A program made the translations under genes and the position numbers. A stretch of DNA of 64,000 bases, taken from assembly GCA_025055255.1 (NCBI GenBank), contig JANWYI010000015.1, positions 4,996-68,995 on the forward strand, given 5' to 3'. The stretch is from Anaerolineae bacterium (GTDB lineage Bacteria; Chloroflexota; Anaerolineae; Aggregatilineales; UBA2796). The notes below the pieces were generated by a model. The model was not told where the DNA came from. It did not search any database and was given only the letters and a program-made list of their open reading frames with translations. Below, in pieces: positions 3,216-13,398 of the stretch; the stretch's first letter is position 1; each line of letters starts with the position of its first letter.

Positions 3216-4742
3216 TTAGAAGAGCTGTCGTGCTGCGCTTGCTGCCCAGTCGAAGATTGGCGTGGCGAAGAATGTGCCGAGCAGGATCACGCCGAGCGTA
3301 GTCAAACCAAGTGCCCATGCCATTGGCTGACCGACTGGCACAGGCTGATCGTCTGCCTCGCTGCGGTCTACGAAGATGACTTTAATCACCACGAGATAGT
3401 AGTAGAGCGCGACCATTGAGTTGACAACGCCTGCAATTGCCAGCCAGACCAAGCCTGCGTCCACAGCGGCGCGGAACAGGAAGAATTTGCCGAAGAAGCC
3501 TGCTGCTGGCGGCACGCCTGCCAAGGAGAGCAGTGCGACCGTCATGACGAGCGCCAAGCCGAGATTGCGCCGTGCCAAGCCTGCCATATCTGAGATTTTC
3601 TCGCTCCCTCTTGCACTGGCGAACACGATCACCACGCCGAAGGCTGCTAGGTTAGTCAGAATGTACATCGCCATGTAGAACGTGACCGCTGCAATGCCCA
3701 AGCCCGGTGGGACGCCCGGCTGCGCCGCAATGGCTGCCACGCCGATCAGCGCATAGCCTGCCTGTGCAATCGAGGAGTACGCCAAAAAGCGCTTGATATT
3801 GCTCTGAACGAGCGCGAACAGGTTACCAACGGTCATGGTCACCACAGCAATCATAGCGACGCTCTGAACCCAAAAACGCGTTGGATCGTCGCCTTGAAAG
3901 ACCACAATCAAAAAGCGCGCGAACAGCGCGAAGCTAGCTGCTTTGCTCGCCACGCTGATGTAAGCGGTCACAGGCGTCGGCGCACCTTCGTAAACGTCAG
4001 GCGTCCAAAAGTGGAACGGCACAGCGCTGATCTTGAAACCAAAGCCGACCAAAATCATGACGAGCGCGATCAAGATCGGCACGAGCGTCTCAGGCGCAGG
4101 CGAGCCAGCTGAGAGCGCCGTCATGCGCTCGCCAATAGCATAGAAGTTTGTAGCGCCTGTGAAGCCGTAGAGCAGACTGAAGCCGTAGAGCATGATCGCC
4201 GATGTGAAGGCGCCGAACAGGAAGTACTTAATGCCTGCCTCAGCCGAGCGTGGACTCTTGACCAGAAAGCCTGAGAGGATGTACAGGCTGATTGAGAGCG
4301 TCTCAAGGGCGATGAACGCCATGATCAGGTCAGCTGAGCCTGCCATGAGGATGCCGCCGAGCGTCGCCACGACCAAGACGGCGTAGAACTCGCCCATGCG
4401 TCCGATCTGCGGCGCGTCTAGCGTGATCAGGCAGACAATGCCGCCAGCGAGCAGCGTGATGACCGTGAAAATCTGCGTCACGCCGTCAAAGCGGAACATA
4501 CCGCCTAAGACGAGTTGCTGGTTAGCTTGACTCGGCGGCGGCACAATCAGCGCAACGAGCGCAATACCGAACAGGCTTAGTCCAACGATTAAGCCAATTT
4601 GTCGGCGGCGACTGGCAGGGAAAAAAGCATCCATCAAGCCGCTCGCCACTGCCAGCACGGTCATCAGGAGCGCAGGCAGCGCCGCTAACAAGTTAGTGGT
4701 CGGATCGCTGTTGAGAACAATGCTTGTCGTCACAGTTTCCAT
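3216..4742 (-). CDS. nuoN: NADH-quinone oxidoreductase subunit N
   Basis: A 508-residue, about 14-helix antiporter-like subunit of the complex I membrane arm, which translocates protons. The Proton_antipo_M core is clear: ALETLSISLYILSGF (TM5 Glu), GFKISAVPFHFWTPDVYEG (TM7 Lys and the PFHFWTPDVYEGAP signature typical of NuoN) and FLAYSSIAQAGYALIG. It is the last gene of the operon, 3 bp after nuoM2 and just before a strong terminator. Confidence 0.96.
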   Translation of the reverse strand: METVTTSIVLNSDPTTNLLAALPALLMTVLAVASGLMDAFFPASRRRQIGLIVGLSLFGIALVALIVPPPSQANQQLVLGGMFRFDGVTQIFTVITLLAGGIVCLITLDAPQIGRMGEFYAVLVVATLGGILMAGSADLIMAFIALETLSISLYILSGFLVKSPRSAEAGIKYFLFGAFTSAIMLYGFSLLYGFTGATNFYAIGERMTALSAGSPAPETLVPILIALVMILVGFGFKISAVPFHFWTPDVYEGAPTPVTAYISVASKAASFALFARFLIVVFQGDDPTRFWVQSVAMIAVVTMTVGNLFALVQSNIKRFLAYSSIAQAGYALIGVAAIAAQPGVPPGLGIAAVTFYMAMYILTNLAAFGVVIVFASARGSEKISDMAGLARRNLGLALVMTVALLSLAGVPPAAGFFGKFFLFRAAVDAGLVWLAIAGVVNSMVALYYYLVVIKVIFVDRSEADDQPVPVGQPMAWALGLTTLGVILLGTFFATPIFDWAASAARQLF

Positions 4743-4745
4743 AGC

Positions 4746-6434
4746 TTATCTCCCTGCCAGCGCAGTCAGGATAGGCTGCATGCCGCCTTCGAGCATTCCT
4801 GTCATGAAGCGCGGGAAGACGCCCAGCAGGATCAGGAAGAAGACCAGTAGCGCCAATGCCGTCTTGTCAAGAATTGTCACGTCGCGCACCTCTGGGAAGC
4901 GCTGAGCGTTGAACTCGCCAAAGAAGACCAACTGAGTCACTTTGAGCACGTACCCTGCTGTCAGGATAATGCCCAAGACCGTGATCATCGCCAAGATCGG
5001 GAAGTAGTCGAAAGTTGGGAAGTAAGCGAGACGCAGCGGCGATGTCGCACCATCAGCGAAGACTGGTCCTGCCCAGAGACCTTGCATGATCGGGAACTCT
5101 GCCACAAAGCCGCTCAAGCCTGGCATTCCCATTGAGACCAAGCCGCCTATGATGAAGGCGAGCGCTACGAACGGCATCCGCTTGCCGAAGCCGCCTAGTG
5201 ACGGTATGTCGCGCGTGTGCGCTTGGTCATAGACCATACCGACGCACGAGAAGAACAGCGCCGTCATCACGCCGTGACTGAACATCTGTAGTCCGGCGCC
5301 GGTCAGACCTTGCACGCTCATTGTGCTGATGCCCATCATCACCAAGCCCATGTGGCTGACTGATGAAAAGCCGATCACGTATTTGAAGTCGCGCTGTCGG
5401 TAGGCGATGAAAGCGCCGTAGACCACGTTGATAGCTGTCAGCAAGATGATCCACGGCAAGTGGACTTTTGCACCTTCAGGCAAGAGCTGCACGCCGACTC
5501 GCAACGCCGCGTACGCGCCGAGTTTCATCAGCACGCCTGCATGGATCATTGAGACAGCCGTCGGCGCCGCTACGTGACCATCAGGTGACCAATTGTGGAA
5601 TGGAAAGACACCCGCCAACACGCCGAAGCCGAGAAAGATCAATGGGAACCACAGCTTAGCGACGCTGAGTCCGCCTGCAGGCGTGAGGTCGAACGGACCG
5701 ATTGCGCCTGTCAGCTGCCGCCAACGCGACGCCGCTTCAAAGTGATAGAAGTCAAAACTGTAGGCAGGCGCTTGAGGATTGTTCAACACTTCTCGCAGCC
5801 GCTCTAGGCGCTGAGCATTTTCGGCGAAGAACGAGCCTGCTGAGAAATACATCACAAGCAAGCCGACTAGTGCCACGAACGAGCCGACTAGGATGTAGAG
5901 TGTCAGCTTCATCGCGGCATATTCGCGCGTCGGCTTCCAGCCCCAGCCGGCAATCAAAAAGTACATCGGGAAAATGGCGAATTCGTACCAGAAGAATAGC
6001 AGGAACATGTCCAGTGAGACGAACACGCCATATACGCCTGCCACCAAGAGCAGGAAGAATGCCATGAATTCGCGCACGCGCTCTTCGATCTTCCACGAGA
6101 TCAGCACGCCTGTGAACGCCGCCAAGCCTGTCAGCAAGACCATCGGCGCTGTTGTGCCGTCTACGCCGACATGATAGTAAATGCCCAGTGCCGGCACCCA
6201 TGGCAGGTTGATCTCCTGCACGAAGTATGAGAGACCGCGCGCGCCGCGCTCAGCAGCGGCTGCAAGCGCTGCTGGTGTGCTCGCCTCGATGTAGACGAGG
6301 AAGGATAGCACTAGACAAACGCCTGTGGAAAAAGCAGCCAGCAGGCGCACCTCTGTTTTTTGTTCATCTTTGAGCGCCAGCAGCATGAAAAGCGCTGCTG
6401 CAATCGGGACGACGAGAACTGCTGTCAGTAACAT
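4746..6434 (-). CDS. nuoM: NADH-quinone oxidoreductase subunit M, second copy (M2), lacking the TM7 lysine
   Basis: A 562-residue membrane antiporter-like subunit, homologous to but clearly diverged from the 540-residue NuoM encoded just upstream. The TM5 glutamate (FFWYEFAIFPMYFL), TM8 lysine (AGVLMKLGAY) and TM12 glutamate (GFVAEFPIMQG) are present. Where NuoM normally has (I/V)K(V/M)P before FPFH or VPLH, this copy reads GVLAGVFPFHNW, so the TM7 lysine is replaced by Leu273. It also carries a hydrophilic insert of about 50 residues (near 185-235). Two nuoM genes in one operon match the published '2M' complex I arrangement. Confidence 0.93.
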   Translation of the reverse strand: MLLTAVLVVPIAAALFMLLALKDEQKTEVRLLAAFSTGVCLVLSFLVYIEASTPAALAAAAERGARGLSYFVQEINLPWVPALGIYYHVGVDGTTAPMVLLTGLAAFTGVLISWKIEERVREFMAFFLLLVAGVYGVFVSLDMFLLFFWYEFAIFPMYFLIAGWGWKPTREYAAMKLTLYILVGSFVALVGLLVMYFSAGSFFAENAQRLERLREVLNNPQAPAYSFDFYHFEAASRWRQLTGAIGPFDLTPAGGLSVAKLWFPLIFLGFGVLAGVFPFHNWSPDGHVAAPTAVSMIHAGVLMKLGAYAALRVGVQLLPEGAKVHLPWIILLTAINVVYGAFIAYRQRDFKYVIGFSSVSHMGLVMMGISTMSVQGLTGAGLQMFSHGVMTALFFSCVGMVYDQAHTRDIPSLGGFGKRMPFVALAFIIGGLVSMGMPGLSGFVAEFPIMQGLWAGPVFADGATSPLRLAYFPTFDYFPILAMITVLGIILTAGYVLKVTQLVFFGEFNAQRFPEVRDVTILDKTALALLVFFLILLGVFPRFMTGMLEGGMQPILTALAGR

Positions 6435-6450: not shown

Positions 6451-8073
6451 TCAACTGCCTAGAAGCCGCGTCACGGTTTGGTTGATAATTTCGACGATCC
6501 AGTTCGGATACAAACCTGTGATCAGCATCAGCACGACTAGTGGCGAGAGCGCCACAACCTCGCGGAACTCAATCTCTAGAGCATGTCCGCGCCAATGCTC
6601 GTTAGTTGGACCGTACAGCACAGCGCGAATGCCTTTCAGGATGTAGGCGCCTGTTAGGAACAAGCCGATCATGGCGACGGCAACCCAGAATGGGAAAATC
6701 CACCAGCTGCCGGCAATGACCTGAAACTCGCTCACAAAGCCTGCCAAGCCCGGCAAGCCGAGGCTCGCCATGCTTGTGAAGATCAGCAAGCCGCCATAGA
6801 CTGGCGCTAAGGCATACAGACCGCCGAACTCGCGCAGATCGCGTGTATGCGCCTTGTGATACAGTGCGCCGACCAGCAAGAACATGCCCGCTGAGCTGAG
6901 TCCATGTGTGAACATTTGCAGAATTGCGCCGTTAGTCGCCATTGTGACCGAACGCTGCACAATCTCAGCGTTCTCAAACTGCGCACCTGTCAGTAGTCCG
7001 TTGTAGACCGCGCTGAAGGCTGCAATGCCCAGCACAACAAAGCCCATGTGGTTGACTGAGCTATAGGCGACCAAGCGTTTGAAGTCGTTCATGCCCCATG
7101 CAGCCAATGCGCCGAAGATGACGCCGCCAACGGCAAGCGCTGCGAGAAACGGCGCGAAGGCTTGCGCCTCAGCTGGAAACATTGGCACGACCAAGCGCAG
7201 GAAGCCATAAGCGCCAAGTTTGAGCAAAATGCCTGCCAGCAACATCGAGCCAGCTGTTGGCGCCTCAGTGTGCGCATCAGGCAGCCATGTGTGGAACGGA
7301 AAGATCGGCACTTTGATAGCGAAGGCAATGAAGAACGCGACGAAGATCAAGGCTTTGACCAAGCCGAGGTCAGCGCCAAACGGGAAGGTCAAGGGCTGAC
7401 CTTGTGCGTTTAAGCCGCGCGGGAAGGTCGCCAGCAGAGTTGGGATGTCCATTGTGCCTGCCATGATGCCGATCAGCTGGAGCGAGAGCAGCAAGCCGAG
7501 CGAGCCTGCCATAGTGTACAGGAAGAACTTGAAAGAGGCGTACTGCCGATCCTTGCCGCCCCAGTAATTGATCAAGAAATACATCGGCACCAAGCCGATT
7601 TCCCAGAAGATGAAGAAAATGATCAGGTCAAGCGCCACGAACAGCCCGATCACGCCCATCTCAAGGAACAGGAAGAGCGCCATGTGCTCATGGACGTGGT
7701 CGGTCACCTCAAAGCTGATCAGGATTGCCAGAGGCGTCAAAATTGCCGCTAACAGGATCAGCGACACGCTCAGTCCGTCCACGCCAACGTGCCACTTCGA
7801 GTTGAGCAGTGGGAAAAATTCTGCCACATGTTGGCAGACAAACGTGAACGGCGCGTTCGCAGCCGCAGTGCGCATCTCTTGCGGCACGTTGCCCTCTGGA
7901 CAAGTGCCGTTTGCATACGCTGCGAACAGCGCAATCGCCATGCCTAGCACAACGACGCTGAAGGCGAGTGCCACAAGCCGCGCCAAGTTCTTCTGGCTGC
8001 GCGGCAGCAGCATGACTACACCTGCGCCGATCATCGGCAAGAATGTGAGCAAGGTCAGAAAGTCTAGCGTCAT
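6451..8073 (-). CDS. nuoM: NADH-quinone oxidoreductase subunit M, first copy (M1)
   Basis: A 540-residue polytopic subunit. All expected proton-path residues are visible: TM5 Glu in FFIFWEIGLVPMYFL, TM7 Lys in AFAIKVPIFPFHTW, TM8 Lys in LAGILLKLGAYGFLR and TM12 Glu in GFVSEFQVIAG. WLPDAHTEAPTAGSM is the classical NuoM signature. It lies between nuoL (11 bp) and nuoM2 (16 bp). In complex I it sits between NuoL and NuoN; with a second M present, the order within the arm is uncertain. Confidence 0.95.
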   Translation of the reverse strand: MTLDFLTLLTFLPMIGAGVVMLLPRSQKNLARLVALAFSVVVLGMAIALFAAYANGTCPEGNVPQEMRTAAANAPFTFVCQHVAEFFPLLNSKWHVGVDGLSVSLILLAAILTPLAILISFEVTDHVHEHMALFLFLEMGVIGLFVALDLIIFFIFWEIGLVPMYFLINYWGGKDRQYASFKFFLYTMAGSLGLLLSLQLIGIMAGTMDIPTLLATFPRGLNAQGQPLTFPFGADLGLVKALIFVAFFIAFAIKVPIFPFHTWLPDAHTEAPTAGSMLLAGILLKLGAYGFLRLVVPMFPAEAQAFAPFLAALAVGGVIFGALAAWGMNDFKRLVAYSSVNHMGFVVLGIAAFSAVYNGLLTGAQFENAEIVQRSVTMATNGAILQMFTHGLSSAGMFLLVGALYHKAHTRDLREFGGLYALAPVYGGLLIFTSMASLGLPGLAGFVSEFQVIAGSWWIFPFWVAVAMIGLFLTGAYILKGIRAVLYGPTNEHWRGHALEIEFREVVALSPLVVLMLITGLYPNWIVEIINQTVTRLLGS

Positions 8074-8084
8074 TGGTTTCGCTC

Positions 8085-10541
8085 CTAGTCACCACTGCCA
8101 GTGGCTTGTGCGCCACCTGTGCTGAAGAATAGCACCAGTACAACAGCGACGCCGCCTTGCACAATCAACGCTGGCACCACCAGATTCGGCGCGACTGCCA
8201 ACACGATCAAGTTGGCGCCAACTATGAGCGCTGCAAGCAGCGTGAAGAGCAAGTATTGCTGCACGCGCCCCGTCTGAACAGGACGCAGGCTGCGCGCTGC
8301 GTCGCCAATTGCCTCTGGAATGCCGTCGCCGACGCCATCAATGACCACACGGTTGAATTCCTTGAACACATCGCCGATGTAGCCTGCAGCTGTGGCGATC
8401 AAGTGCAAGATTCCGTCAATAATCCCGCGATCTACCACGCGGCTGTAGCCTTCAGCGATGCGCTGCATCGGCTTGACGAAAGCGCGCTCGTAGAACTCGT
8501 CAATGTAGTACTTGTTGACCAGCACACGGTAAGCGTCCGCGCCGATCAGCCCTTCAACAGGATCGGGCTGTCCAAGCGCGTATGGACGCCGCGCGTATAG
8601 CACATAGCCTGCATACACGCCAAAGCCGAAGATCGCAAACGAGAGCAAGACGGGCAGGATGTTGAAGTCAGGCAGTGGCGGCGGCTCCAGCAGCGCATTT
8701 TTGATGTAGAGGATCAGCGGCTTCTCAACGCCAAAGCTCTTGAGCAACGGACCGATGATCGGGAAAGACGGATTGACACCGACAAAGCCTGCAAAAATGG
8801 CGAAGAACGCTAGTACGATCAACGGAATGGTCATTGTGGCGGAGTTAAATGCCTCATGGCGACCGTCGCCGCGCGCAGGATTGTAATGCTGCGCATTGCG
8901 CGCTGCTTCTGTGCGTGGCTCGCCGAAGAAGGTCAGCCAGATTTGGCGGAAGGTGTAGAGCGTCGTTAGCACAGCGGCAAGTGAGAGCAGCACTAGCACG
9001 AGCAAGCCAATTGGATTCTTGCCCATCAAGTGCCATGCCTCTAACAGGATTTCATCCTTTGACCAGAAGCCTGCTGTGATCAGCGGCGCGCCTGCCAACG
9101 CCAAGCCGCCAATGATGAACGTGACCGCTGTGACAGGCATGGTGCGGATCAAGCCGCCCATGTTGCGCATGTCCTGCGGATCGAACATCTCGCCATGTGC
9201 TTGACTATGCGTTTCATGACCGTGTTCAGCATGTGTCTCATGACCATGCTCAGTGTGCGCCTCGTGACTGTGTTTGGCGTGCGCAGCGTCATGACCGTGC
9301 GCCTCATGATGTCCGTGCGCCACATGGTGACCGTGCTCCATGCCGTGAATGACCGAGCCGCTGCCCAGAAACAAGAGCGCTTTGAAGAAAGCGTGTGTGA
9401 TCAAGTGGAAAAACGCAGGCGCGAATCCGCCAACGCCTAGCACGGCAACCATGAAGCCGAGCTGGCTGACCGTTGAATAGGCGAGGACTTTCTTAATGTC
9501 GTTCTGTGCTACGGCAATGCTGGCAGAGAAAATCGCTGTGAAGCCGCCAACAACTGCCATGAAGACCATCGGCGCGCTCAGCAGACCTTCCTCGATGTTG
9601 GCGCCTGCTGAAAGCACTGGGAACATGCGGATGATCAGGTACACGCCTGCTGAGACCATAGCTGCAGCATGGATCATCGCGCTGACAGGCGTCGGACCTT
9701 TCATTGCATCGGGCAGCCAGACGTGCAGCGGAAATTGCGCTGACTTGCCGACCGTGCCGATCACGATGCAAATGCCGATCAGTCCTGCCGCGCTCAAGCC
9801 GAGAAAGCCGCCGAGCGCTGGAGTCGTGGCAAGGCTCTGCAGCGTCGCCTCATTGAAGAAAATCTCGCGGAAGTTGAGCGTGCCAGTGGTTGCCCACAGG
9901 TAGGCAATGCCGATCAGCATGATTACGTCGGCAATGCGCGTGGTCATGAATGCCTTCATCGCCGCTTGATACGGCGCCACACGGTCAACCTCTTGCTCAG
10001 GCGAGCGGTCGTACCAGAAGCCGATCAGCAGATACGAACACAAGCCCATCACTTCCCAGCCGATGAAGAGCAACAGCAGGTTGTCGGCGACCACAAGCGT
10101 GAGCATGGCGCCGGCGAACAGGCTCAAGTAGGCGAAGAAGCGCGTATGACGCTCTGCATTCGCCATGTAGCCGAGCGTGTAGATGAAGATCATCATCATC
10201 ACAAGCGGCACCATGAACAGCATGACAGCTGTCAACGGATCAACGGCTACGCCAATGTTCAGCGCGCCGTTGCCTGTGCCATTGACCAGCCAGCCGTTGC
10301 TGCCCAGAATGTCGCTCAGGCTGCTGCCGAAAATGCCGCGCGAGTACTTACCCAAATCACTAATGGCGAAGGCGCGCAGCACAAGCGCGAAGCTGAGAAA
10401 CCACGTGATCGCCATTGCGCCGAGCGCAATAATCTGTGTTGCCACACGGCTGCGCCCTGCCAGCAGGATAATCACTGCAAAGGCGATGAATGGCGGCAGT
10501 GGAATCAGCCAAGGCAGAAAATTTGCGTTTAGCCAGTCCAT
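8085..10541 (-). CDS. nuoL: NADH-quinone oxidoreductase subunit L with extended lateral helix and His-rich insert
   Basis: At 818 residues it is long for NuoL (613 in E. coli). Core features: FIGWEVMGLCSYLLIGFW, GTVGKSAQFPLHVWLPDAM (TM7 Lys) and ITHAFFKALLFLGSGSVIH. Two additions stand out. Residues about 399-450 are a hydrophilic loop dense in His-Gly, His-Glu and His-Ala repeats. Near the C-terminus, the stretch from VDRG (Asp704) to QTGR (Gln756) is about 25 residues longer than usual and repeats an R-x-x-I-D-G motif at exactly 26 residues (Arg705 and Arg731). This stretch forms the horizontal helix that clamps the antiporter subunits, which fits an arm with an extra NuoM. Confidence 0.95.
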   Translation of the reverse strand: MDWLNANFLPWLIPLPPFIAFAVIILLAGRSRVATQIIALGAMAITWFLSFALVLRAFAISDLGKYSRGIFGSSLSDILGSNGWLVNGTGNGALNIGVAVDPLTAVMLFMVPLVMMMIFIYTLGYMANAERHTRFFAYLSLFAGAMLTLVVADNLLLLFIGWEVMGLCSYLLIGFWYDRSPEQEVDRVAPYQAAMKAFMTTRIADVIMLIGIAYLWATTGTLNFREIFFNEATLQSLATTPALGGFLGLSAAGLIGICIVIGTVGKSAQFPLHVWLPDAMKGPTPVSAMIHAAAMVSAGVYLIIRMFPVLSAGANIEEGLLSAPMVFMAVVGGFTAIFSASIAVAQNDIKKVLAYSTVSQLGFMVAVLGVGGFAPAFFHLITHAFFKALLFLGSGSVIHGMEHGHHVAHGHHEAHGHDAAHAKHSHEAHTEHGHETHAEHGHETHSQAHGEMFDPQDMRNMGGLIRTMPVTAVTFIIGGLALAGAPLITAGFWSKDEILLEAWHLMGKNPIGLLVLVLLSLAAVLTTLYTFRQIWLTFFGEPRTEAARNAQHYNPARGDGRHEAFNSATMTIPLIVLAFFAIFAGFVGVNPSFPIIGPLLKSFGVEKPLILYIKNALLEPPPLPDFNILPVLLSFAIFGFGVYAGYVLYARRPYALGQPDPVEGLIGADAYRVLVNKYYIDEFYERAFVKPMQRIAEGYSRVVDRGIIDGILHLIATAAGYIGDVFKEFNRVVIDGVGDGIPEAIGDAARSLRPVQTGRVQQYLLFTLLAALIVGANLIVLAVAPNLVVPALIVQGGVAVVLVLFFSTGGAQATGSGD

Positions 10542-10562: not shown

Positions 10563-10856
10563 TTAGCTCTGTGCCTTGAGTTCATAGATGTGACGCGCGA
10601 CGCCACTTGCAAGCAAGTGTTGCACCTTGCCGAGCTGCGCTTGGTAGAAGCCGTCGTGATCGCCTGCTGCAAGCGCCTCTTGGCTTTCCCAGACCGAGAT
10701 CACCATTGCCTGCTCAGCTGCCGCGTCCACTAGGAAGTATGTGCGCAGATGTCCTGAACGTGCGCGATTAGCAGGGATGATCGACTCGTTAAATAGCTTC
10801 ACCAGCTCATCGAGTGCACCGCGCTGATACTGAAAAGTTGAGACTCTTGCGAACAA
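10563..10856 (-). CDS. ABM-domain (antibiotic biosynthesis monooxygenase-like) protein inside the nuo operon
   Basis: A 97-residue single-domain protein: ARVSTFQYQRGALDELVKLF at the start, then GHLRTYFLVDAAAEQAMVISVWES and a C-terminal Val/Leu-rich strand. This is the dimeric alpha/beta barrel (ferredoxin-like) ABM fold, found in small monooxygenases, haem-degrading enzymes and stress proteins. It sits between nuoK (13 bp) and nuoL (21 bp) on the same strand, so it is almost certainly co-transcribed. No catalytic role can be read from the sequence. Confidence 0.75.
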   Translation of the reverse strand: MFARVSTFQYQRGALDELVKLFNESIIPANRARSGHLRTYFLVDAAAEQAMVISVWESQEALAAGDHDGFYQAQLGKVQHLLASGVARHIYELKAQS

Positions 10857-10869
10857 CTGATCACTCCTT

Positions 10870-11208
10870 CTAGTAGCGCAGCGTATCCACGTCTTCCGCG
10901 ATCACAGTACGACGGTTGCGGTAGACCGAAATGACTAATGCTAAGCCAACAGCGACTTCAGCTGCTGCCACTACGAAGACGAACGCCGCAAAGCTTTGTC
11001 CTGCCATGCCGACTTGTAGTCCTTCAGCGGTCGCAGCTGTGCCAGGCGTCAGGTAGCGCCAAAAGGCGACAAGGTTGATGTTCACGGCGTTCAACATCAG
11101 CTCAATGCCCATCAAAATGGCGACTGCGTTGCGGCGCGCTAGGACAGCGTACATGCCGATGCAGAAGAGCAGTGCGCCAACGATTAGAAAAGCGTTTAGC
11201 GGTAACAT
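10870..11208 (-). CDS. nuoK: NADH-quinone oxidoreductase subunit K
   Basis: A 112-residue, three-helix subunit equivalent to MrpC. Signature: GALLFCIGMYAVLARRNAV, then MGIELMLNAVNINLVAF carrying the membrane-buried glutamate, and FAAFVFVVAAAEVAVGLALV with the second conserved glutamate. The start at 11208 is preferred to 11238 because GAGGAAG lies 6 nt before it; this ATG follows the nuoJ stop by 10 bp. Confidence 0.95.
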   Translation of the reverse strand: MLPLNAFLIVGALLFCIGMYAVLARRNAVAILMGIELMLNAVNINLVAFWRYLTPGTAATAEGLQVGMAGQSFAAFVFVVAAAEVAVGLALVISVYRNRRTVIAEDVDTLRY

Positions 11209-11218
11209 TCCGTCTTCC

Positions 11219-11746
11219 TCACTCGTCTTCGCGCGCAATCACAATCGCGCCAACCATTGCAGCCTCTAGCAAAAGCGACGCGACAATGAACGGCACAACG
11301 TACTGGTTCACATCTACCAGCGCGATGCCTAGATCGCGGAGACTCTCGCCTGTGATCTGGCTGATCGGCTGGCTTGGCAGGAGCGGCGCGCTGCCAGTGC
11401 TTGCCAGCACCAAGCCCAACACAATCACGCCAAACGTGACAATCGCGCCGAGCAAGCCATATATCCATTGGCTATTCGGCGCCTCGCGCAAGCCCATCAG
11501 CCGCCGCGTGAGCATGATAGCGAAGATGATCAGCACTACAATCGCGCCGATATAGACCAAGACCTGCACAGCGGCAAGGAACGGCGCCGCCAACAACACA
11601 AAGAAACCTGCCACGCCGAACAGACTGATGATCAGCCATAACGCGCAGTGAAACAAGTTGCGACTTGTAGCCGTTCCAATGCCGCCGCCAATGATGAAGA
11701 CCGTGAACAAGCCAAATATGAACCACTGTCCGAACTCAGCTTCCAT
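11219..11746 (-). CDS. nuoJ: NADH-quinone oxidoreductase subunit J
   Basis: A 175-residue, five-helix membrane subunit next to NuoK and NuoH. HCALWLIISLFGVAGFFVLL and QVLVYIGAIVVLIIFAIMLT (the TM3 pi-bulge helix) are diagnostic. The C-terminus ends in a short charged segment (IAREDE). It is 31 bp after nuoH. Confidence 0.95.
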   Translation of the reverse strand: MEAEFGQWFIFGLFTVFIIGGGIGTATSRNLFHCALWLIISLFGVAGFFVLLAAPFLAAVQVLVYIGAIVVLIIFAIMLTRRLMGLREAPNSQWIYGLLGAIVTFGVIVLGLVLASTGSAPLLPSQPISQITGESLRDLGIALVDVNQYVVPFIVASLLLEAAMVGAIVIAREDE

Positions 11747-11777: not shown

Positions 11778-13025
11778 TCAGTCCGATGCCATGGCTGCAG
11801 CGCGCACAGGTTGCACGGATCGCATGCCTAGTTTAGCGCGCTGTGCCTCGCCGTAGCGATGCAGCAACTGCGTCGCCACAATGAACATGATCACGTTCGC
11901 CACGAGTAGCACGACTGCGCGCGGCAACTCTGCGATGAAGCCTGCGCCGAAGATCGCGCCGATCAGACCTGCTAAGCCGCCCTGTGCCACAAGTGCCTCA
12001 GCTGCTGCGTAATCTGGCACGAACGGACGCGCCAAGAACATCACAACGAGCAAGTTGACGATGGAGAGTGGCACGAGGAACTTCCAGTTGAACGCCATCA
12101 TGTGATCAATGCGAATGCGCGGCAACGTGCTGCGCACCAACATCACCAAAGCGTAGACCGCTACAGACTTTGCCATGAGCATGAAGAAACCGAACAGCTC
12201 ATAGCCCGGCTCGCCTGCGCCCAAGCCGCGCCAGCCGCCCAAGAACAGTACAGCCGTCAAGATGCAGATGACGAAAGCGTGGATGAATTCCGCGGCGTAG
12301 AACATCGCAAACTTCATGCCAGAGTACTCAATGTTGAAACCGGCAATGATCTCCGACTCCGCCTCGATCAGGTCAAACGGCGAACGTCCGACTTCTGCCA
12401 GCTGCGAGATGAAGAAAATCAGCGCGCTGACTGGCACGACGAAAATGTAGGCGATGCTTTGCCCTTTGACAATGTCCTGCATGCTCATTGAGCCTGCCAG
12501 CATAACTGGCACTGCCAATGAGAGGATCATCGGCACCTCATAGCTGACTAACGCTGCAATGGCGCGGAAGGCGCCCAAGAGCGCGTACTTGTTATTGCTG
12601 CTCCAGCCTGCGAGCAAGATTGCGAGCGTCGCCAATGAGCCGACCGCTACAAAGTACAGCACGCCGACGTTCAAATCCGCGCCAATCCATGCATGGTTGA
12701 ACGGAATCACAGCGAAGATGGCGAGGATACCTGCCACTGCCAAGATCGGCGCAAAATTGTAGACGTGCTTGTCAGCGCCTACAGGCGTGATGTCTTCTTT
12801 GGTCAGCAACTTGCCTAGGTCAGCAAAGGTCTGGAACAAGCCGTACGGACCTGTCCGATTCGGACCGATACGATCCTGCACGCGCCCTGCAAATTTGCGC
12901 TCTAACCAGATCGAAAAGATGATCCAGACCAAGCCGAACGAAGAAAGCACAACTGCGCCAAGCGCTGAGGCAACGATCTGAGCGAGAGTAGCATTCCAGC
13001 CAGAGTTAATCAAGAATTCCGCCAT
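11778..13025 (-). CDS. nuoH: NADH-quinone oxidoreductase subunit H
   Basis: A 415-residue, eight-helix subunit that forms the quinone chamber together with NuoB and NuoD. ERKFAGRVQDRIGPNRTGPYG, the loop FADLGKLLTKEDITP, EVGRSPFDLIEAESEI and RIRIDHMMAFNWKFLVPL are all classical. The C-terminal 70 residues (from about 335) form an additional hydrophobic segment and a basic tail beyond the usual end. nuoH directly follows nuoA, with nuoB, C, D and I absent between them. Confidence 0.95.
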   Translation of the reverse strand: MAEFLINSGWNATLAQIVASALGAVVLSSFGLVWIIFSIWLERKFAGRVQDRIGPNRTGPYGLFQTFADLGKLLTKEDITPVGADKHVYNFAPILAVAGILAIFAVIPFNHAWIGADLNVGVLYFVAVGSLATLAILLAGWSSNNKYALLGAFRAIAALVSYEVPMILSLAVPVMLAGSMSMQDIVKGQSIAYIFVVPVSALIFFISQLAEVGRSPFDLIEAESEIIAGFNIEYSGMKFAMFYAAEFIHAFVICILTAVLFLGGWRGLGAGEPGYELFGFFMLMAKSVAVYALVMLVRSTLPRIRIDHMMAFNWKFLVPLSIVNLLVVMFLARPFVPDYAAAEALVAQGGLAGLIGAIFGAGFIAELPRAVVLLVANVIMFIVATQLLHRYGEAQRAKLGMRSVQPVRAAAMASD

Positions 13026-13038
13026 GGCTTGTCACCTC

Positions 13039-13398
13039 TCAGAGCCACTCTAGCGCACCTTTGCGCCATGCGTAGATCAGAGCAACGCCCAGAATACCTA
13101 CAAAGCCTGCCATTGCTACCAGTGCAAACAGACCAAGCTGATTGTAGGCAACTGCCCAAGGAAACAAGAAAAGCATTTCGATATCGAAGATCAGGAAGAC
13201 AAGCGCGTACAGGTAGTACTGCACCTTGAACTGCACCCAAGCATCGCCTACTGTCTCAATGCCGCACTCGTAGGCTTCCTGCTTCAGCCTGTTCGGACGC
13301 TTCGGATTCAGCAGCTGTGCCAAGAAAATTGGCACTGCAGGCAGAATCAGCGCTACGATGAAGAATATTCCGATGAACAACCACTCATTTGGCTGCAT
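13039..13398 (-). CDS. nuoA: NADH-quinone oxidoreductase subunit A
   Basis: A 119-residue, three-helix subunit. [20 protein letters not shown] matches the conserved loop E/D-C-G that covers the quinone site, and [18 protein letters not shown] is the second helix. AAGGAG lies 7 nt before the ATG. It is the first gene of the operon; upstream there is only a promoter and, further off, a terminator and a broken gene. Confidence 0.96.

Follow-up and report, generated by a model that had tools for sequence, protein, structure and literature searches.

We found that the lateral helix of the complex I subunit NuoL carries between one and five copies of a 26-residue unit in an Anaerolineae bacterium and its relatives, and that its length, as a rule, does not report the number of NuoM genes. 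The nuoL gene under study lies in the window, i.e., the whole 64,000-nucleotide stretch of an Anaerolineae contig that was analyzed, and belongs to a complex I operon with two nuoM genes (2M). A lengthened NuoL helix together with a second NuoM had previously been taken as support for a five-proton complex I. Variation of the helix in 26-residue steps without a second NuoM bears on the energy yields assumed for these bacteria, as does the occurrence, across a whole Anaerolineae clade, of a second NuoM without a lysine thought to be essential for pumping.

The window operon and the lateral helix of its NuoL

The operon of the window runs in the order nuoA-H-J-K, a gene for an ABM-domain protein (PF03992, 97 aa, 10563-10856, same strand, located between nuoK and nuoL) and nuoL-Ma-Mb-N. 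Its features are as follows.

13039..13398, minus strand: nuoA
11778..13025, minus strand: nuoH
11219..11746, minus strand: nuoJ
10870..11238, minus strand: nuoK
8085..10541, minus strand: nuoL, 818 aa (NCBIfam PRK06590.1, 563.6 bits, above cut-off; also TIGR01974)
6451..8073, minus strand: nuoM copy a (NuoM-a), 540 aa (TIGR01972, 493 bits)
4746..6434, minus strand: nuoM copy b (NuoM-b), 562 aa (TIGR01972, 413 bits)
3216..4742, minus strand: nuoN, 508 aa (TIGR01770, 401 bits)

The genes for L, M, M, and N are contiguous, and both NuoMs, encoded between nuoL and nuoN, score above the TIGR01972 cut-off, in line with the 2M assignment made in an earlier note on this DNA. No peripheral-arm genes were noticed beside nuoA in the window. 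NuoD matches were found on contigs C174 and C155 of the same genome; on the latter, two of them share a 620-aa frame, which would fit the reported fused nuoCD. The genome additionally encodes a second complex I on contig C226, where a NuoL tail is followed by one nuoM (1M type) and then nuoN, and an Mrp-like MrpA/MrpD pair.

The same note had described NuoL as lengthened and as carrying a recurring motif, and both observations hold. Asp704 and Gln756 are 52 residues apart, compared to 26 in canonical Chloroflexota NuoLs, and R-x-[VI]-I-D-G returns at an offset of +26. Because the 1M NuoL of C226 has 26 residues at this place (VDRGAIDQG...RTVQTG), the excess in the window NuoL amounts to exactly 26 residues.

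8358..8435, minus strand: lateral-helix unit 1, residues 703-728, VDRGIIDGILHLIATAAGYIGDVFKE (unit profile 13.6 bits; 16-residue motif profile 22.8 bits)
8280..8357, minus strand: lateral-helix unit 2, residues 729-754, FNRVVIDGVGDGIPEAIGDAARSLRP (unit profile 16.7 bits; 16-residue motif profile 12.4 bits)
8412..8429, minus strand: first R-x-[VI]-I-D-G motif, RGIIDG, residues 705-710 (from sequence)
8334..8351, minus strand: second R-x-[VI]-I-D-G motif, RVVIDG, residues 731-736 (from sequence)

The coordinates 8302-8440 given earlier located the repeat but covered residues 701-747 only and missed the end of unit 2; the pair extends over about 8280-8435. The unit profile is position-specific and was built, to avoid circularity, from the 27 residues before QTG in 21 non-redundant single-unit Chloroflexota helices. 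Along all 818 residues it peaks at positions 729 (16.7 bits) and 703 (13.6 bits), with a next best score of -4.9, while the maxima of 5000 shuffled NuoL tails averaged -13.3 bits and none of them reached the score of either unit. Both halves of the window helix thus match the single canonical unit. The two units are identical at 7 of 26 positions (shuffle p 0.0003). An offset of +30, which was best in a raw self-comparison, was discarded as unit size, since the canonical profile sets the copies 26 apart.

Total length proved unsuitable as a 2M test. The region from Y.DE.Y to QTG comprises 78 residues in the window NuoL and 81 in the 1M NuoL of C226, which owes this length to a different, non-repeat insert further upstream (DWxFWHDFVHD); most 1M NuoLs of Anaerolineae and Ardenticatenia reach 81 in this way. 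Apart from the helix, the window NuoL contains a His-rich loop at about residues 401-455, between GSVIHG and QDM, with 19 His in 55 residues, most of it modeled with low confidence by AlphaFold2. The median number of His in this loop was 17 in seven 2M NuoLs, 5-7 in other long-helix NuoLs, and 0 in six single-unit NuoLs.

Unit number and nuoM number in relatives

Relatives were obtained from one genome-collection scan of Chloroflexota kin (80 named loci) and from searches of the phylum and class of the window; the searches also covered the phylum to which a locus named Armatimonadetes belongs, and operons were fetched. In Anaerolineae and in the latter phylum, NuoL lateral regions contain 1, 2, 3, 4 or 5 units. 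The distance from Y.DE.Y to QTG rises from 51-53 residues with one unit to 77-79 with two, 103-105 with three, 129-132 with four or an irregular arrangement, and 155 with five, and almost all lengths fall on the first four of these steps. Neighboring units are 26 residues apart in 80 of 91 intervals and 27 apart in the other 11. The five-unit NuoL, which has the longest helix seen, is encoded with one nuoM (L132:2784-5129, identical to L070). In a separate class of NuoL, with a region of 81-82 residues, a single unit is accompanied by an insert of 30 residues that is unrelated. Two loci of one family (L065 and L204) have a 129-residue lateral region in which three regular units are followed by the Pro/Gly-rich GQLGPWATGSVEPEVPDAPVGP before QTG.

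For the comparison with nuoM, we counted only operons with an uninterrupted series of L, one or two M, and N (a few loci occur twice under two identifiers). Operons with a single nuoM have one unit in 19 cases, two in 29, three in 11, and four or an irregular number in 4. Two units together with two nuoM genes occur in nine counted operons, in the window, and in two operons read by eye (L053 and L129); a one-unit helix was not found among the 2M operons, all of which have two units. The lengthening had been proposed to mark an arm with two NuoM subunits, a specificity that the insert does not have: the length of the window helix recurs in the 29 two-unit operons with one nuoM, and 15 more such operons carry three or more units. 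Equal length in 1M relatives was what the note itself had named as counter-evidence. A tandem arrangement was seen at L200:3560-10814, where a three-unit nuoL and a nuoM precede another nuoL, which has a non-repeat tail and is followed by a nuoM of its own, at which point the contig ends.

Whole genomes were searched for further nuoM genes. The L, M, and N of a single complex were the only matches in G207, G208, G209, G211, G212, G213, and G215, whose NuoLs have two to five units, and likewise genome-wide in G432, G233, G243, and G437, which are 92-93% complete and have three or more units; many genomes are incomplete MAGs, so that gaps are a caveat for any single genome, less so for all eleven. 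The sampled NuoLs of the Armatimonadetes-locus phylum have two units as a rule. Across 12 of its genomes, every operon with a long helix contains a single nuoM, and further strong NuoM matches are located at separate loci. Since relatives combine one to five units with one ordinary nuoM, a longer helix alone is no proof of an extra pump.

Origin of the units and order of events

The proposed origin of the lengthening by duplication of the helix is supported by the profile matches in the window NuoL and by the three-unit helix of L195, in which two adjacent 78-nt copies, spaced by 78, are 87% identical. Such copies, which argue that tandem duplication of units is real, are what would be expected after a recent duplication of precisely one unit.

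In a tree of the NuoL core, calculated without the tail, the 2M rows fall within a clade of 44 rows (support 98), whose other rows are long-helix NuoLs with a nuoM count of one or unknown. Just outside this clade are rows from the Armatimonadetes-locus phylum that have two units and a single nuoM. On the tree, nuoM count requires two changes and unit number thirteen. A firm nesting of the 2M NuoLs among single-nuoM long-helix NuoLs had to be softened, because a tree with the long-helix NuoLs of single-nuoM Anaerolineae as a clade of their own, separate from 2M, was not rejected by an AU test (p 0.40). A common ancestor with a long helix would fit the nested and the un-nested tree alike, and the tree suggests that the helix was lengthened before the second NuoM appeared. 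Grouped with the 2M rows is an odd 1M row (L084:5890-8238), which combines a core of this kind with a non-repeat 1M-type tail in an operon with one nuoM; it is possibly a chimera or a case in which the second NuoM was lost.

In the NuoM tree, NuoM-a and NuoM-b each form a clade on a long stem, separate from the other, and every 2M member is represented in both. The pair therefore appears old and shared, and a recent origin of NuoM-b by copying of NuoM-a finds no support in these stems.

The TM7 lysine of the second NuoM

In E. coli NuoM, E144, K234, and K265 have been termed essential (PMC5061711), and E144 and K234 form an ion pair (PMC9271201). NuoM-a of the window keeps all key pumping residues, including the TM7 lysine K254. 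NuoM-b has a leucine at the K234 site.

5616..5618, minus strand: codon for L273 in NuoM-b, the position equivalent to K234 of E. coli NuoM (pairwise alignment with 3rko_M)

This leucine is present in 12/12 second NuoMs, compared to a lysine in 79/79 other NuoMs (12/12 NuoM-a and 67/67 single NuoMs). Equivalents of E144, K265, H348, and E407 are retained in the NuoM-b of the window (E151, K304, H387, and E446), and NuoM-b gains a conserved His298 in TM8. The absence of the TM7 lysine from all twelve second NuoMs makes the suggested gain of more protons per electron pair doubtful. Going by these residues, a fifth proton moved through NuoM-b by the ordinary route is unlikely; with the other key sites kept and His298 gained, NuoM-b may still pump, possibly by a changed route.

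Structure prediction and competing explanations

According to Foldseek, the window NuoL has the same fold as canonical complex I NuoL (6hum, 8qby, 8e9g); a solved 2M or multi-unit complex was not found among the NuoL structure matches. The AlphaFold2 monomer model (52 sequences) predicts a mainly helical extension, with a short break.

8340..8504, minus strand: helix predicted for residues 680-734, followed by a break at 735-739 and a helix at 740-751 (AlphaFold2 monomer)

The pLDDT falls from about 75 to about 43 along the helix and is 57 and lower past about residue 700. The break coincides with the second IDGVG, where confidence is below 50, which we attribute to the absence of partner subunits from the model. 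For the four-unit NuoL of L201, helices were predicted at 589-618, 620-668, and 674-721, i.e., about 130 nearly unbroken helical residues. At this confidence, the models tentatively argue against an added TM helix; they do not give the place of the helix on the arm.

Overall, we consider it reasonably probable that the lateral helix is modular, that two units preceded the second nuoM, that unit 2 lies over the extra NuoM, and that NuoM-b is not a plain pump. The middle of the helix would consist of a 26-residue unit (about 39 Å of helix), present once in canonical NuoL and twice in the window NuoL. Extra units would originate from in-frame duplications of 78 bases and be held at exactly 26-27 residues, presumably because each must span one further antiporter-sized step. 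A two-unit helix probably came first in the clade, with a single nuoM gene, and the second nuoM later. In the L-M-M-N arm of the window, unit 2 would most likely lie over the extra NuoM and hold the longer arm together, and NuoM-b, in which the Glu-Lys ion pair is missing its TM7 lysine, would less likely act as a plain fifth pump for protons than as a structural subunit, a relay, or a pump whose chemistry is altered.

The standard 2M model takes the helix as lengthened to clamp the extra NuoM, its length as equivalent to NuoM number, and the yield as one more proton per turnover. It accounts for the two units in every 2M operon found and for like-sized inserts in the Nitrospira 2M complex and a five-antiporter Manganitrophaceae complex (PMC9040806). 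As a rule it is contradicted by dozens of single-nuoM operons of equal or greater length in two phyla, and given the apparent age of the helix and the missing lysine of NuoM-b we hold it to be quite unlikely. If units track antiporters, single-nuoM complexes with several units call for an additional assumption. The extra units may serve some other purpose, or several NuoM copies may come from one gene. In the latter case, unit number would set the NuoM protomers of the arm, with identical copies in L-M-M-N or L-M-M-M-N arms and a dedicated second gene added later in the 2M clade. The strict 26-27 spacing, the single nuoM genome-wide in multi-unit genomes, the long helix modeled for L201, and a reach of up to five units (155 residues, about 230 Å if helical, more than the normal L-to-N span) speak for it. 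However, the duplication mechanism can also give an exact unit size, and the 2M NuoMs form their two long-stem clades rather than nesting among NuoMs of single-nuoM multi-unit operons. We regard this explanation as equally improbable, and its full form, a molecular ruler whose one to five units fix the NuoM copies from one gene and hence a variable arm length and proton yield, as slightly less probable still. Several NuoM copies from one gene would be a real surprise if true.

A tandem-duplicated helix might instead be merely tolerated: it could fold back, or continue beyond NuoN alongside K, J, A, and H, in which case the complex would gain no antiporter and the added helix would do little. 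Recent unit copies exist, another 1M class bears a quite different 30-residue insert, and the E. coli helix tolerates insertions of six to seven residues at several positions (PMC3274701), although an insertion at P552 cuts pumping to about a quarter (PMC3274701). The prevalence of two units among the sampled NuoLs of the Armatimonadetes-locus phylum and the retention of the FDxx[VI][VI]DG motif and its spacing in old, diverged copies suggest selection on the units, and we judge mere tolerance unlikely. The series of one to five units represents a natural experiment on the role of the lateral helix.

Comparison with known systems

A 2M complex I was reportedly described for Anaerolineae and other Chloroflexi by Chadwick et al. 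in 2018. The window shares with the Chloroflexi complexes the nuoL-M-M-N order, the long amphipathic helix, and probably the location of nuoBCDI away from the operon. Separate nuoBCDI and a fused nuoCD are typical of them, e.g., in Anaerolinea thermophila, so that the 2M operon of the window is itself already known (PMC7117926). The two-unit structure of the helix, its occurrence with a single nuoM, and the TM7 Lys to Leu exchange in NuoM-b are unmentioned in the 2M literature as far as surveyed.

By published description, the window NuoL also resembles the Nitrospira 2M NuoL, with a similar 26-residue insert in the lateral helix, and Complex_I_3 of Manganitrophaceae, which has five antiporters and an insert of similar length; inserts were noted in two complexes of canonical gene content, too (PMC9040806). 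These systems belong to another phylum than the window, and Complex_I_3 uses MrpD2 instead of NuoL. Canonical NuoL (6hum, 8qby, 8e9g) has one unit, homologous to both units of the window NuoL, in a lateral region of about 51-53 residues. The exchange in NuoM-b has a counterpart in HycC of the E. coli formate hydrogenlyase, where L208 takes the place of K234 (PMC5061711); HycC, however, is a hydrogenase subunit, whereas NuoM-b, with the same leucine, is encoded in an operon for respiratory complex I.
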